Source: Nitzschia sp. pyKryTriq1 (lineage: Eukaryota; Bacillariophyta; Bacillariophyceae; Bacillariales; Bacillariaceae). Taken from it: 64,000 nt of DNA. Shown here one piece after another: positions 34,114-39,990 of the stretch. The position numbers and the translations under genes were made by a program. The stretch is from the NCBI GenBank assembly GCA_956465555.1, contig OY101116.1, positions 372,001-436,000 of the forward strand, written 5' to 3'. The notes beneath the pieces were generated by a model. The model was given only the letters and a program-made list of their open reading frames with translations, had not been told where the DNA came from and searched no databases. How positions within the stretch are numbered: position 1 is the first letter of the stretch; each line of letters begins with the position of its first letter.

Positions 34114-36005
34114 ATGGCTCTTATCACCGCCTCATTGTTCATGAGGCTCTGCCTCTGCGCCTCTACCATCCTACTGGTGGGGGCGAATTCCCACCACCAC
34201 CAACAACAAGAAGAAGCTGTCATTGATGCAGCACAGGGAACCGTCGTGCATATCAACAGCAATGATAATAATGATAATAGTCAGGGTACCTCGAATAATA
34301 AAAATAATGAGGAGTATGGAGTCGACGCGTCATGGCCCATGCATCATCATTCTATTCCTATTACTCCTGCCGACTTGGATCATCATCGTCCGAATAATAA
34401 TCCTCTCGGCGCCGAGGCACGACAATCGGCGTACCAAGAGTATTTGCAAGGATGCCTGATTGGAAACGCTGAAGAAGAAGAAGAAGAAACGGAAAAGTTT
34501 TCAGCGTCACCCTCATCCGCATCGTGTCGTCGATTTGAAGCCGATCGGATTGCCATGAATCTTCAACAACCGGCGATCAGTCAAAATTATACACATGCTG
34601 GGTTTGCCAAGGTGGAAACACCACCTGCCGTTCTGCAGCTCTTGCAAGAAATATGGGAGGAGGAAAATGAAGATGCATCATCATCATCGTCGTCGTCGTC
34701 CAAAGTATTGGAACGGTGGGAACGTGGAAACACATACTTGAATCATTGGCACAGTCCTACGTACATGATAGATATTACACAGATTTTATCGACGGCAGAA
34801 CAGCGGCAATTGGTGCAAGCCGTACAATCGGTCTTGGAGGCATGGACGCAACAACCTTTGGTGTTGACGAGTCTCTATGGAATTCGGATTTATGGAAATG
34901 AGGCAGTCCTGTCATCGCATGTGGACCGATTGCCATTGGTCTCTTCGGCAATCATTAATGTAGCCCAGGATGTCGAGGAACCATGGCCTCTGGAAGTCAT
35001 TGGCCACGATGGAAAGGCCCACAATGTCACCATGGAACCAGGAGACATGGTGTTGTACGAAAGCCATTCCGTGATTCACGGTAGACCCTTTCCTCTCAAG
35101 GGAAAGTACTACGCCAACGTCTTTGTCCACTTTGAACCATTAGGTCACTCCTTTCGGCATATTCAGAATTCACCCCACCACCAAGAGACGGCACAGGCTA
35201 CTTATGAACGTGCCTTGGCGTATCATCAACAGCAGCAGCAGCAATCTCAAACGAAGAAGGTGGTGATGATGAACAACCAGCAGCATTCGTCACCTCGGAT
35301 GCAGCAAAAGGCTCAATACGACGAGGCCATATTGAACGATCATGGTGCTGCGCCCACGGCAGCGTTGCCCTATTACGTTCCTCCGGATAAGGAAGTACGA
35401 TGGAGGCAGCAGTTTGAATATGAAAAGGAGCCTGAGGTAAGTTCGCATGGGTGGTGAAAGAAATACTCGTACTAATTATTTGTGCATTTGGTTTGAGACT
35501 GGTCGTTATGGTTTTCTCACCGTGCGCACTACTATTTTTTTACTTTTTTCCCGCTCGCTCGCTTGCTTTTGCTGCCCTTTTTTGCAAATGTATATTGTAG
35601 ATCTCACCCAAACCTACTCGAGCCACTCTCGGCAGTATCAATCCTCATTTTGCCGCTGCCGATGGTGCGTTGGACTTGCTCAAGGAAATTGCTGCCAAAG
35701 ATCGATCGCAGCTCTTCAAGAGTGATCCAAATGGTTGGCGTCCCTTACACGAAGCGGCGAGAGGTGGGCACGCTCATGTTGTGGCGTATTTGTTGCATGA
35801 AGGAGCTCAAGTCAATGAACGGGCAAATCATGGGGAGGGAGGGAGTCCATTGTGGTGGGCTGAACGAAATGCCAAGAAAAATTCCAAGACGATTAAGGTA
35901 TTGAAACAGCATGGAGGTGTGTCACTAGCGCCTCTCCCAGCAGAGGCAAGGAAGAATTCTGCGGGAACCGGTACGGATACAAGTAACCAGAAGAAAGCAA
36001 AGTAG
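34114..36005 (+). CDS. Secretory prolyl-4-hydroxylase-like dioxygenase fused to ankyrin repeats, copy 1
   Basis: Two exons, 34114-35436 and 35601-36005, with a 164-base phase 0 intron (GTAAGT...TGTAG), 575 residues. A signal peptide (MALITASLFMRLCLCASTIL) precedes a low-complexity His/Asn/Gln region. The dioxygenase domain carries the iron and 2-oxoglutarate ligands expected of prolyl 4-hydroxylases: H269-x-D271 (SSHVDRLPLVSSA), H322 in SVIHGRPFP and K331 in LKGKYYANVFVHFEP. Exon 2 encodes the C-terminal ankyrin repeats (DPNGWRPLHEAARGGHAHVV, then AYLLHEGAQVNERANHGEG). It therefore joins an iron/2-oxoglutarate enzyme to a protein-binding domain, both predicted to enter the secretory lumen. 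Compared with its two neighbours it has a longer Gln-rich linker and lacks the intron they share inside the enzyme domain. The substrate is unknown. Confidence 0.88.
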
Positions 36006-36057
36006 TAGGAGTAGAGCAATGCCGTAATATTCTGAGTATGCACCTACTTATAGAGTA

Positions 36058-37737
36058 TTATAATTCAGCATCGGTCGTTCGGGACTTTGTGGCTGTTGCA
36101 GGTGCGTTGTGACTTGGGTGCTTGTCAATGGCTCCAAGCTCCACCAAGAACTTTGTGACTTCATGGTCCTTTCCGAGGAATTCTCGAGCAATATTGAGAG
36201 GTGTGACACCCGTATAAGTCAATCGGTTTTTATGTGCGGGATCACTGTTGTGGATGATTTCGACGGCTTCCCGCCTTCCAGCGCGGACGGCTTCATGAAA
36301 CGGCGTCCATCCATTATCGTCTGGAGAAAAGAACTGTTTCCGGTCTACTTCGGCGATTCGTTTCAGAGCCTCGATGTCGCCCTTTTTGGCAGCTTCTCGG
36401 GGGTCCAAGAAGGTCTGTATGAATAATGAAAATGATAACAATCATAACAATGTGCAGTGCAGTGTGTTAGGAGATGCTAGTAGAGGAAGATACGCCGAAC
36501 AGACCACGGATCAGTCCAACCACCGACAGTCAGTCCATCACTTACACCCTTCCATCCGTTTGGATTATTGCGTCTCCACTCATGTTCCCATGCCGATCCA
36601 GGAATAAGGTAGGGCGGTAAATCAAGTTTGGAATCGTACATGGTATCCTCCGATCCATCCAAAGGCCCAATGGGTTCAAAATGAACAAAGACGTTCGCGT
36701 AGTACTTTCCCTTGAGAGGAAAGGGTCGACCGTGAATCACGGAATGACTTTCGTACAATACCATGTCTCCTGGTTCCATTGTGACATTGGTAGCCACACC
36801 ATCGTGACCGTAGACTTCCAATGGCCATGGCTCCTCCACATCTTGATCGACATTGACTGAGGAAGAAAAGCAAAAGAAATTAGAAAAAAACGATCATCCT
36901 TCACACAGTACAAGCAGTCACCAAAACAATACTCACTAATTGCCGAAGTAACCAAAGGAAAGCGATCAACGCTGAAATGATAGATAGAGAGACAACGGAA
37001 CAAACCAAAAATATTAGAATCAGTAAGCGATGACGCACAACATCACAACATCGAGACGATGCAAAAGCAAGCAAGCCCCATCCATTCTACTGTACGATAG
37101 TTCCATGATACTGCGAATCTGCCGGTACGTACTGAGGTGCCAAGATGGATCCATTGTGATAGAGCCGAATCCCGTACAATGATACTGGAGACAGCTCTCG
37201 CCCCGACCACTCCTCCATAATGTTTTTGGCCACACTCCACACCTGACTTTGCAAGTGGGCTCCACCTCCCTTGTTCTTCGCCTGATTCATGTGCAAAATA
37301 GTGGGTGGAGCTTCCCACATATTATGATACGTATTAATGTCCCGCCACTCGATCTCATCCTGACCCTTGTTTTGATTGTAAAAATTGAGAATCAAGTCGA
37401 AGAGTTCCGGTGGGGCCCGAATCTTTTTATACCCCGCCTTTGTGTAGTTGCGAACACTCGAAGGTTGATGTTTATTCATTTCCAAACGATAGTTGTCTTC
37501 AAGTTGGCAGTGCGCACCAGGCCTGTTGCTAACCGACTTTTGGCACTCTTGGATGTAACGGTCGTACAGAACCTGCTTGTCTTCTCCCAGCATTTTCGAT
37601 AATGTGGCAGATCGGACCGCCCAAGAAGCATCATCTGTGTAAGTGTAGCTACTACTTGTGCTTGTACTGGCATTCTGTGAATCTGCCAGCTGGATCCAGC
37701 TGAACAGACAGCAGCATAGCGAAATGGCTACTTTCAT
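36058..37737 (-). CDS. Secretory prolyl-4-hydroxylase-like dioxygenase fused to ankyrin repeats, copy 2
   Basis: Four exons on the minus strand: 37737-37133, 36971-36937 (35 bases), 36856-36546 and 36414-36058; 435 residues. Intron phases are 2, 1 and 0, with GTACGT, GTGAGT and GTAAGT donors. The signal peptide is MKVAISLCCCLFSWIQLADS. The N-terminal half (SSVRNYTKAGYKKIRAPPEL) matches the other two copies. The iron ligands HVD fall across the first splice junction (H202, D204), and the distal HGRPFPLKGKYYANVFVHFE follows in exon 3. Exon 4 holds the ankyrin part (DDNGWTPFHEAVRAGRREAV, YTGVTPLNIAREFLGKDHEV). The gene is inverted relative to copies 1 and 3 and is convergent with copy 1, only 52 bases away. 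All ligands are intact, so it should be active. Confidence 0.87.
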
Positions 37738-38427
37738 TGTCTTTGTTTTGTCGTTGTCGTTGTCGTTGTTGTTCGTGATGTGTTGTAATAGACCTTTTTT
37801 ATGGAGAAATCATCCGAGATGGAAGTGATCGGTCATGGTCGATGATCCGAGAACTGAGCACCGGTATGAGTGAGGAGTGACAGGAGGAAGTCGTCGTCGT
37901 CGTTTGAATTCTCGCTAATAATCCGCGGCTCGAGCTGTACTGTAGTGTCGAGTGACAGGCAGGCGCGCGGGTACTGTACCATACTTACTGTACGAATACC
38001 ATACCAGTGAAAGCACAGTTGCGGTTCGCATTACAGTACGATGAATACTGTACTGGTACTCGAAGTACGGTACGGTACAAGTACAGTACGTACCAGTACA
38101 GTACGAGTACAGTACCGGTAGTACGAACTGTTCGCATTCCGTCCGTCGCGTCGTCCACTCCGCATAACGACACCCAAAACGTTATCCTTGCCCACAAAAA
38201 TGCCGTTGCCGTTGTTGCAGCCGACAGCCGACGACAGGTGAAAAAATGTGAGAGAAAATGTGAAGCGCATTGCGCTTTCATTCTCATACCATCATACTCG
38301 TACCCCACCCGTTCCTCCTTCTAGCTACCGGTAGAGCAGAGGGTGTAGCTTGCGCCTCTGGCTGAACACTCTTCTACACCATTGCTACAGACAGACAGTG
38401 ACAGTACCGGCACGTAGTCTACCGACC
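37738..38427. other. Divergent intergenic region with a GTAC-word island
   Basis: About 690 bases between copies 2 and 3 of the hydroxylase-ankyrin genes. The stretch 37970-38125 is packed with GTAC, TACAGTAC and CCGGTA words. An ATG at 38350 is in frame with copy 3 but is probably upstream of the real start. No other gene is supported. Confidence 0.5.
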
Positions 38428-39990
38428 ATGACGACGACGACTCGACAACAACACCAGATCACCCGTACGGGTACGACGTTCGGCTTCATTATCGTTTCCC
38501 TCGCGGTACCAATATTGGCATTGTCTGTCTTGATGGTGCACTTGACTTCTTGCCAAGCTTCCTCGTCGCCATCATCGGTGACGATGAGGTATTCCGCTTC
38601 GGACGATGCTTCCTGGGCGATTCACTCGAATCGTCTTTCGTCCCTCTTGACTTCTGACAAGCAATCCATCTACGACAGTTATATTCATCAATGCAATTTG
38701 GCCGCCGCCTCCGCCGCTGCCATGAAACAAGAGCAAGCGCAGCCGGATGGACAAGAAAAAGATCCCGACTTTTGTACATTCCATGATGACGTTCGTTTAC
38801 GCATGAATCGAGAACAACCGAGAAGTGTGTACAACTACACCGAATTAGGGTTTGCCAAGATTCGAACGCCTCCTAAACTCTTTCAACTCGTCCATGACTT
38901 TTATGAGACGAACCGCGACGAGTTTTCCGTCACGGAATGGACGGAAACGATCAATACGTACCAAAATCTATGGGATATTCCTTCGACACTTGTGCGATTA
39001 GAAGATGAACGACTTCACGGAGGGGGAGAGGCATTGAAAGCCCTTGTATGGGAATATGCGAAACCTATATTAGAAGACTGGGTCGGACAAGAGTTGGCTC
39101 CCGTTAGTCTCTATGGGGTCCGCGAGTATCATCGTGGAAGTCTCTTGGCACCGCATGTGGATCGAATGCCCTTGGTCACATCGGCAATCAGTAAGTAGTT
39201 TGCGTACGTATATTGAATGGATGGATGGATGGATGGATGAATGAATGAATGACAGAACTACTGATGACAAATGAATATATAGGATTGCTGTCTCACTGAT
39301 TTACCACATCATTATGCATCGTCGTCATCATCCTCTACGCATATAGTCAATATCGATCAGCAAGGCATTGACGAGCCATGGCCGCTGGAAGTCTATGGGC
39401 ATGATGGAAAGGCGACCAATATCACCATGGAACCAGGAGATATGATCTTGTATGAAAGTCATTCCGTCATTCATGGTCGACCGTTTCCCCTGCAGGGAGA
39501 GTTGTACGCGAATATCTTTCTCCATTTCGAACCAGCAGCACCCGACCCTTCGAACTATGATCCCGCCGCACAGGGCGGATTGCCTCCGTATATTATCCCA
39601 GGTTCTATTTGGGAAAATCAATGGAGAATGGATCATCCCAATGGTTGGCTGGGCGATGATCATGGTAATGGTGGTGGTGAGGATGATGAACGGAGCGCCC
39701 GAGAGGCAGTCTTTCGAGGAGATGTAGACCTATTGCGGGAGCTCGGCAAGGAGAATCCAGACTTGCTGATGAAACCCGATATGAATGGCTGGCACCCGTT
39801 GCATGAAGCGGTCCGAAATGGAAACATTGAAATCGTGCGGATTCTGTTAGATCATGGCGCCAATGTCAACCAAGAAACCAAATACCAGGAGAATCCGCTC
39901 CGTATATCCATTAGCGAGCACGGGCTAAGCCACGAAATGACCGAGTTTCTACTGGAAATGCGAGCCGTGGATGCGGGGCCGGACCTTTAA
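38428..39990 (+). CDS. Secretory prolyl-4-hydroxylase-like dioxygenase fused to ankyrin repeats, copy 3
   Basis: Two exons, 38428-39190 and 39347-39990, with a 156-base phase 1 intron (GTAAGT...TATAG), 468 residues. An ATG 78 bases upstream (38350) is in frame, but the ATG at 38428 gives a better N-terminus, with a single hydrophobic signal or anchor (FIIVSLAVPILALSVLMVHL). The iron ligands are H243 and D245 (APHVDRMPLVTSAI), followed after the intron by NITMEPGDMILYESHSVIHG and RPFPLQGELYANIFLHFEP. The 2-oxoglutarate-binding Lys of copies 1 and 2 (LKGKYY) is replaced by Glu (LQGELY), an unusual change that may weaken co-substrate binding. The ankyrin domain (DMNGWHPLHEAVRNGNIEIV, RILLDHGANVNQETKYQEN) is in the same exon as the distal half of the enzyme domain. 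Confidence 0.87.
39218..39253. repeat. ATGG/ATGA tandem repeat inside the copy 3 intron
   Basis: Five or so ATGG units followed by three ATGA units, within the 156-base intron of the third hydroxylase-ankyrin gene. A pure slippage repeat. Confidence 0.85.

Follow-up and report, generated by a model that had tools for sequence, protein, structure and literature searches.

The window, a 64,000-nucleotide stretch of contig OY101116.1 from the diatom Nitzschia sp. pyKryTriq1, contains three adjacent genes (g1, g2 and g3) whose products share one order of parts: a hydrophobic N-terminus, a domain carrying the motifs HxD and HGR, and C-terminal ankyrin repeats. The cluster extends from an ATG at position 34114 to a final stop codon that finishes at 39990, exactly the bounds given in the original prediction, which had also called the common architecture and the inversion of one gene (g2, on the minus strand) correctly. 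Models built by means of GT-AG junctions gave open reading frames for all three genes and proteins that can be aligned end to end. In this shared alignment, a DASW motif past the N-terminus leads into the catalytic domain, which is followed by the ankyrins.

The first gene, g1 (plus strand, 575 residues), consists of two exons. Exon 1 (34114-35436) encodes the hydrophobic N-terminus, a low-complexity stretch and the entire catalytic domain, including HVD at 34918-34926, the presumed first and second iron ligands, and HGR at 35077-35085, which provides the presumed third ligand and a conserved Arg two residues further on. Exon 2 (35601-36005) encodes the ankyrin repeats (Pfam Ank_2, residues 457-546) and a C-terminus, QKKAK, that is not of the ER type. 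The inverted gene, g2 (435 residues), is divided into four exons. The first (37737-37133) covers the hydrophobic N-terminus and the N-terminal half of the catalytic domain, and it stops within the codon of the HxD His; the second (36971-36937), only 35 bases long, supplies the remainder of HVD and the next strand. Because intron 1 interrupts the His codon, the active site of g2 requires splicing. Exon 3 (36856-36546) encodes the C-terminal half of the domain with HGR and then a linker, and exon 4 (36414-36058) the ankyrin repeats (Ank_2, residues 325-412) and the C-terminus TDAEL.

The third gene, g3 (plus strand, 468 residues), begins with an exon at 38428-39190 that encodes a long hydrophobic N-terminus, either a signal peptide or a type II anchor, and the catalytic domain up to HVD (39154-39162) and SAI. 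The rest of the domain with HGR (39472-39480), a linker, the ankyrin repeats and the C-terminal GPDL follow in exon 2 (39347-39990). Since a single open frame (39349-39987) covers both HGR and the ankyrins, the g3 fusion is independent of splicing. The ankyrin domain of g3 (39697-39957) is predicted to form three helix pairs, with pLDDT mostly 82-94 per ten-residue block, and the top PDB match of this model is a designed three-repeat ankyrin protein. Ankyrin repeats are the only Pfam models above cut-off in g1, g2 and g3. A 20-codon block of 95% DNA identity raised the idea of gene conversion between g1 and g2, yet an overlapping block of g2 and g3 is 87% identical, so that constraint may suffice to explain the similarity, and conversion was set aside.

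The genome assembly that holds the window (40.65 Mb in 20 contigs) contains further members of this family. Queried with the protein encoded by g1 exon 1, it yielded 27 matches, from which eight additional fusions were modelled: three on C3 (C3a-C3c), two on C2 near 1.27 Mb (C2d, C2e), two on C8 (C8f, C8g) and one on C9 (C9h). Because these eight genes have the same order of hydrophobic N-terminus, HxD...HG(R/H) domain and ankyrins, the architecture of the three-gene cluster is not a matter of chance. The total is a lower bound; at least 11 diatom genes thus make up a dioxygenase-like family that has no Pfam name. Each of these combines an HxD...HG(R/H) domain with ankyrins above the Pfam cut-off, and none of the 11 has a cysteine in the tail beyond the catalytic domain. 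When the g2 ankyrin exon was used as the genome query, 10 of the 11 fusions were recovered (C2d was missed), together with two other ankyrin genes. The fusions form a single clade (support 97/98) in a tree of 25 rows that includes sister genes as well as bacterial and viral rows. Consequently, one fusion event followed by expansion, partly as local clusters, is the simplest history.

The sister genes have a homologous enzyme domain and no ankyrins. Four of them, L015-L018, lie on C8:1141817-1154756; identity to g2 is 31% for L017 and 29% for L015. The tail of L017 is Cys-rich and ShK-like, scoring 20.6 bits against a Pfam cut-off of 20.9, and those of L015 and L016 look similar by eye. L018, in which no ShK-like tail was seen, ends in EAEEL. 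In another gene, on C10, the enzyme domain is preceded by a different N-terminal part, and the C-terminus is GEL.

The enzyme domain had been described as prolyl-4-hydroxylase-like, a description that the predicted fold supports and that Pfam family membership does not. The putative iron triad, HxD...H, is invariant in all 11 fusions and in alignments A1 (13 rows) and A5 (9 rows). Nevertheless, no Pfam model matched the enzyme domain of g1, g2 or g3 at E<=0.1. In individual scans, the model 2OG-FeII_Oxy_3 had no match in these three proteins at that threshold, nor in C3a, C3b and the sister L017 at E<=1. For the six remaining fusions, the catalytic parts were covered by a genome scan with this model, which returned 52 matches elsewhere (51 above cut-off) and none at family members. 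Likewise, a sequence search of the PDB with residues 1-317 of g2 found no chain at E<=5, and g2 had no match in NCBIfam. A profile search of the PDB with A1 gave three weak matches, two to CmnC (E 0.24 and 0.32), whose alignment with the profile spans the HxD-HGR stretch, and one to an unrelated protein (0.76). Profile-profile comparison with prolyl 4-hydroxylase (P4H) was also weak (probability about 1%; P 0.05 in one direction, 0.15 in the other; 0.41 in a reversed control), and the claim about the fold therefore rests on the predicted model. In that model, the core (pLDDT >90) adopts the double-stranded beta-helix, or jelly-roll, fold of Fe(II)/2-oxoglutarate enzymes. Its nearest folds in Foldseek are bacterial prolyl 4-hydroxylase and PHD2, although the top superpositions are moderate (TM 0.40 by query and 0.59 by target, rmsd 8.7). 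Predicted structure and conserved motifs together thus suggest that the domain is a dioxygenase. Compared with P4Hs of the 2OG-FeII_Oxy_3 type (Pseudomonas putida P4H, 4j25; PHD2; the collagen and plant enzymes), the fusions share the predicted jelly-roll and the HxD...H order, but they differ in having no match to the Pfam model and a variable Lys/Arg at the ninth residue past the distal His (H+9).

Relatives of the domain occur at nine loci in prokaryote genomes. At four of these (L030, L031, L033 and L035), it is placed after a canonical P4H domain; L033 and L035 additionally carry HPAT (hydroxyproline O-arabinosyltransferase) and GlcNAc glycosyltransferase domains in that chain. The domain stands alone in L032 and L034, which have no Pfam match, and in L036, scanned with NCBIfam and PHROGs only; L037 and L038 are fragments, the latter 49 residues long and from a MAG contig. 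The P4H tandem recurs in L064 and, by eye, in L069. Best segments of the second domain are 32-39% identical to g2 in the four tandem proteins named first, and the best segment of L064 is 38% identical to g1. Unlike the fusions, the bacterial tandem proteins have an attached P4H domain, no ankyrins in Pfam and no signal sequence visible by eye. Among 369 genomes of the class to which genome G004 belongs, six had a match, strong in G004 itself and in G314; a motif scan of the four weakly matching genomes found no such domain.

The domain also has relatives in phages. The closest library family found for the g1 domain was phrog_2954 (E 4.4e-18), which bears the label ferrochelatase. Four phage proteins of phrog_2954 and phrog_3531 retain HxD...HxR, and these families have the pattern HxD...HxR...H in common with the fusions. 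In contrast to the fusions, the four proteins have no ankyrins in Pfam; one of them, L072, has a P4H domain instead. No ferrochelatase model matched them in Pfam and NCBIfam at E<=1, and the label of phrog_2954 is probably wrong, judging by these motifs and profiles. A profile scan of viral contigs found one relative (L029), and in phage S-SCSM1 the relative comes after a gene annotated as GDP-fucose protein O-fucosyltransferase. As reported in 2024, phrog2954, described there as a ferrochelatase, is enriched in seasonal marine phages and co-occurs with 2OG-Fe(II) oxygenase (PMC11561400). A marine-phage "ferrochelatase" that is in fact a dioxygenase relative would alter the reading of this phage metabolic signal. 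The associations with P4H, glycosyltransferase and O-fucosyltransferase suggest protein hydroxylation coupled to glycosylation, and a protein substrate gains in likelihood from the two bacterial chains that also carry hydroxyproline glycosyltransferase domains.

Entry of the fusions into the secretory pathway, which had been predicted, agrees with hydropathy. The N-terminus is strongly hydrophobic in nine of the 11 models, and in the remaining two a hydrophobic stretch lies upstream of the modelled start; that of the sister L017 is hydrophobic as well. As to topology, the 11 models have no strong hydrophobic segment past residue 70, where the top 19-residue mean hydropathy is 0.89-1.21. With no second such segment, the chain would place its ankyrins, its C-terminus and the enzyme-domain sequons on one side. 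All 11 fusions conserve two sequons for N-glycosylation, NYT and N[VI]T, of which the latter is missing from all nine rows of alignment A2. The C-terminus is [DE]L in eight of the 11, compared with about 1.2% expected from composition, a comparison that ignores shared descent and should not be turned into a probability. Five of these ends (g3, C3a, C3c, C2e and C9h) are at the same position and may go back to a single ancestral end. Stronger evidence for residence in the ER lumen is that g2, C8g and C3b keep the ending beyond tails of 23, 9 and 51 residues, respectively. The C-terminus of C3b is DDEL, the only canonical signal among the fusions, and this tetrapeptide serves for ER retention in P. 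tricornutum (PMC3503769). The endings GPEL, GPDL, GAEL and DAEL are non-canonical, whereas the sisters L016 and L017 end in DHDEL. No [DE]L is present in g1 (KKAK), C2d (WYEE) and C8f (GPE), nor in the sister L015 (VTEE).

These features suggest that the fusion proteins, ankyrins included, are luminal in the ER, which fits better than secretion. The original prediction had left the choice between luminal and extracellular ankyrins open and had proposed a wall- or matrix-modifying enzyme that grips its substrate with the repeats, both still conjectural; its luminal alternative is the one toward which the [DE]L ends and the two sequons lean, and the secreted alternative fares less well, even though g1 has no [DE]L. 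We accordingly favour, with some reservation, the reading that g1-g3 belong to a diatom family of ER-luminal dioxygenases of the Fe(II)/2-oxoglutarate type, most likely hydroxylating proteins of the secretory pathway or the cell wall. A hydrophobic segment at the N-terminus would direct the chain into the ER, where the predicted jelly-roll domain would bind iron through HxD...H and consume 2-oxoglutarate and oxygen. The luminal ankyrins may grip a polypeptide substrate or partner, and in most copies the [DE]L C-terminus would return the enzyme to the ER. There is a precedent for such a grip: in collagen prolyl 4-hydroxylase, a helical-repeat peptide-binding domain holds the substrate. The alpha subunit of that enzyme resembles the fusions in having a helical-repeat partner domain, but there it is an N-terminal TPR domain rather than C-terminal ankyrins.

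Other locations of the proteins can be envisaged. The fusions could be wall or matrix enzymes that merely pass through the ER and act outside the cell, their [DE]L ends being leftovers of descent. The hydrophobic N-termini would suit this, as would the three fusions that have no [DE]L and the shared position of five of the eight ends that do. It is nonetheless unlikely, given that [DE]L persists in eight of 11 fusions, in one case as DDEL past a 51-residue tail, and that two sisters carry HDEL; moreover, it is questionable whether 2-oxoglutarate would be available extracellularly. Ankyrins are usually found in the cytosol or nucleus, and the long hydrophobic run of g3 could remain as an anchor, which raises the idea of a membrane protein with cytosol-facing ankyrins. 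This we consider highly improbable, because the 11 models have no second hydrophobic segment and a type II anchor would likewise leave the ankyrins in the lumen. Diatom plastid proteins have a signal peptide first and then a Phe-containing motif. A Phe can be read near the likely cleavage site of C2e and C8f, but none was seen there in g1, g2 and g3, and the [DE]L ends and conserved sequons suit the ER better, so that plastid targeting by such a bipartite presequence is scarcely credible.

The family could also have kept the jelly-roll while catalysis was altered or lost in some members, such as g3 and C3c, which would then bind or chaperone wall proteins and not hydroxylate them. A basic Lys or Arg at H+9 is a usual 2-oxoglutarate anchor. 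It is present in nine of the 11 fusions and in three of the nine rows of A2, and is replaced by E in g3, by N in C3c and by S in L015 and L017, two sisters of the ShK type; in addition, C9h has HGH for HGR. On the other hand, the HxD...H triad is retained in every fusion, and the Arg at H+2 is found in 10 of the 11 and in all nine rows of A5. Another basic residue, at H+2 or H+16/17, could anchor 2-oxoglutarate, and we regard a change or loss of catalysis in part of the family as rather improbable.

The ER-luminal hydroxylase reading can be extended to a specific function, to which we give little weight for now. Together with the relatives in bacteria and phages, the domain family may comprise a second protein hydroxylase that acts in series with prolyl 4-hydroxylase, and the ankyrin-bearing ER form of diatoms might make 3,4-dihydroxyproline or delta-hydroxylysine, wall residues described long ago, on silaffin-like proteins, with the ankyrins gripping a repetitive substrate. 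The grounds for the idea are circumstantial: the P4H tandems of bacteria and one phage protein, the two bacterial chains with hydroxyproline glycosyltransferase domains, and a probable location in the ER of an alga that deposits silica. The genome has eight places above cut-off for Silic_transp, the silicon-transporter family, a signature of diatoms. The walls of several diatom species are reported to contain 3,4-dihydroxyproline (PMC5501833, PMC4557024), and diatom silaffins to bear hydroxylated proline and lysine, including trimethyl-hydroxylysine (PMC3806462). The word "hydroxylase" is absent from the main texts of PMC5501833 and PMC4557024. Among titles in the literature on ankyrins with prolyl 4-hydroxylase, 2-oxoglutarate or Fe2OG dioxygenases, and on hydroxylation of diatom walls or silaffins, none concerned an ankyrin-dioxygenase family.

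Overall, the fusions form a dioxygenase-like family that has diverged and has a new architecture; they are out of the ordinary but do not amount to a system of a new kind. Their ankyrin repeats apparently reside inside the ER lumen, an unusual location for this domain. For diatom biology, the family supplies concrete candidates for knock-out in the study of wall hydroxylation.

Within the window, two of the three dioxygenase-like and ankyrin fusion genes, g1 and the inverted g2, share a 20-codon block, YESHSVIHGRPFPLKGKYYA, which lies at 35056-35115 in g1 and at about 36696-36755 in g2. DNA identity between the two copies is 95%, higher than in the flanks, and may reflect either conversion or constraint. 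Elsewhere in the diatom genome, the g2 ankyrin exon resembles ankyrin genes at C10:510612-510899 and C1:4196819-4197034. The frames that hold these matches are long, at 801 and 705 aa respectively, and a genome search with the g1 exon 1 protein found no enzyme-domain match in them. Sister genes without ankyrins occupy L027 and L028 (C8:1141817-1154756); among the ankyrin-less sisters, the L016 and L017 proteins strongly resemble each other and both end in DHDEL.

Relatives of the family also appear in prokaryotic and phage sequences. A 49-residue stretch at a contig end in a Bacteroidia MAG (L038:2992-3138) reaches 78% identity to the diatom fusion family in its best segment and is probably diatom contamination. 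HxD...HxR is retained in four phage proteins of phrog_2954/3531 (L070:762-1454, L071:1021-1563, L072:807-1892 and L073:585-1226), which also match the jelly-roll domain family found in the window. Three of the four records name them ferrochelatase; no ferrochelatase model was found in these proteins with Pfam or NCBIfam, and the label likely marks a misannotated marine-phage metabolic gene. In gammaproteobacterial MAGs, single frames of ~1190 residues (L033:1-3582 and L035:22-3588) join hydroxyproline O-arabinosyltransferase, GlcNAc glycosyltransferase and prolyl 4-hydroxylase domains to the new one, in what looks like an assembly line for hydroxylation and glycosylation.
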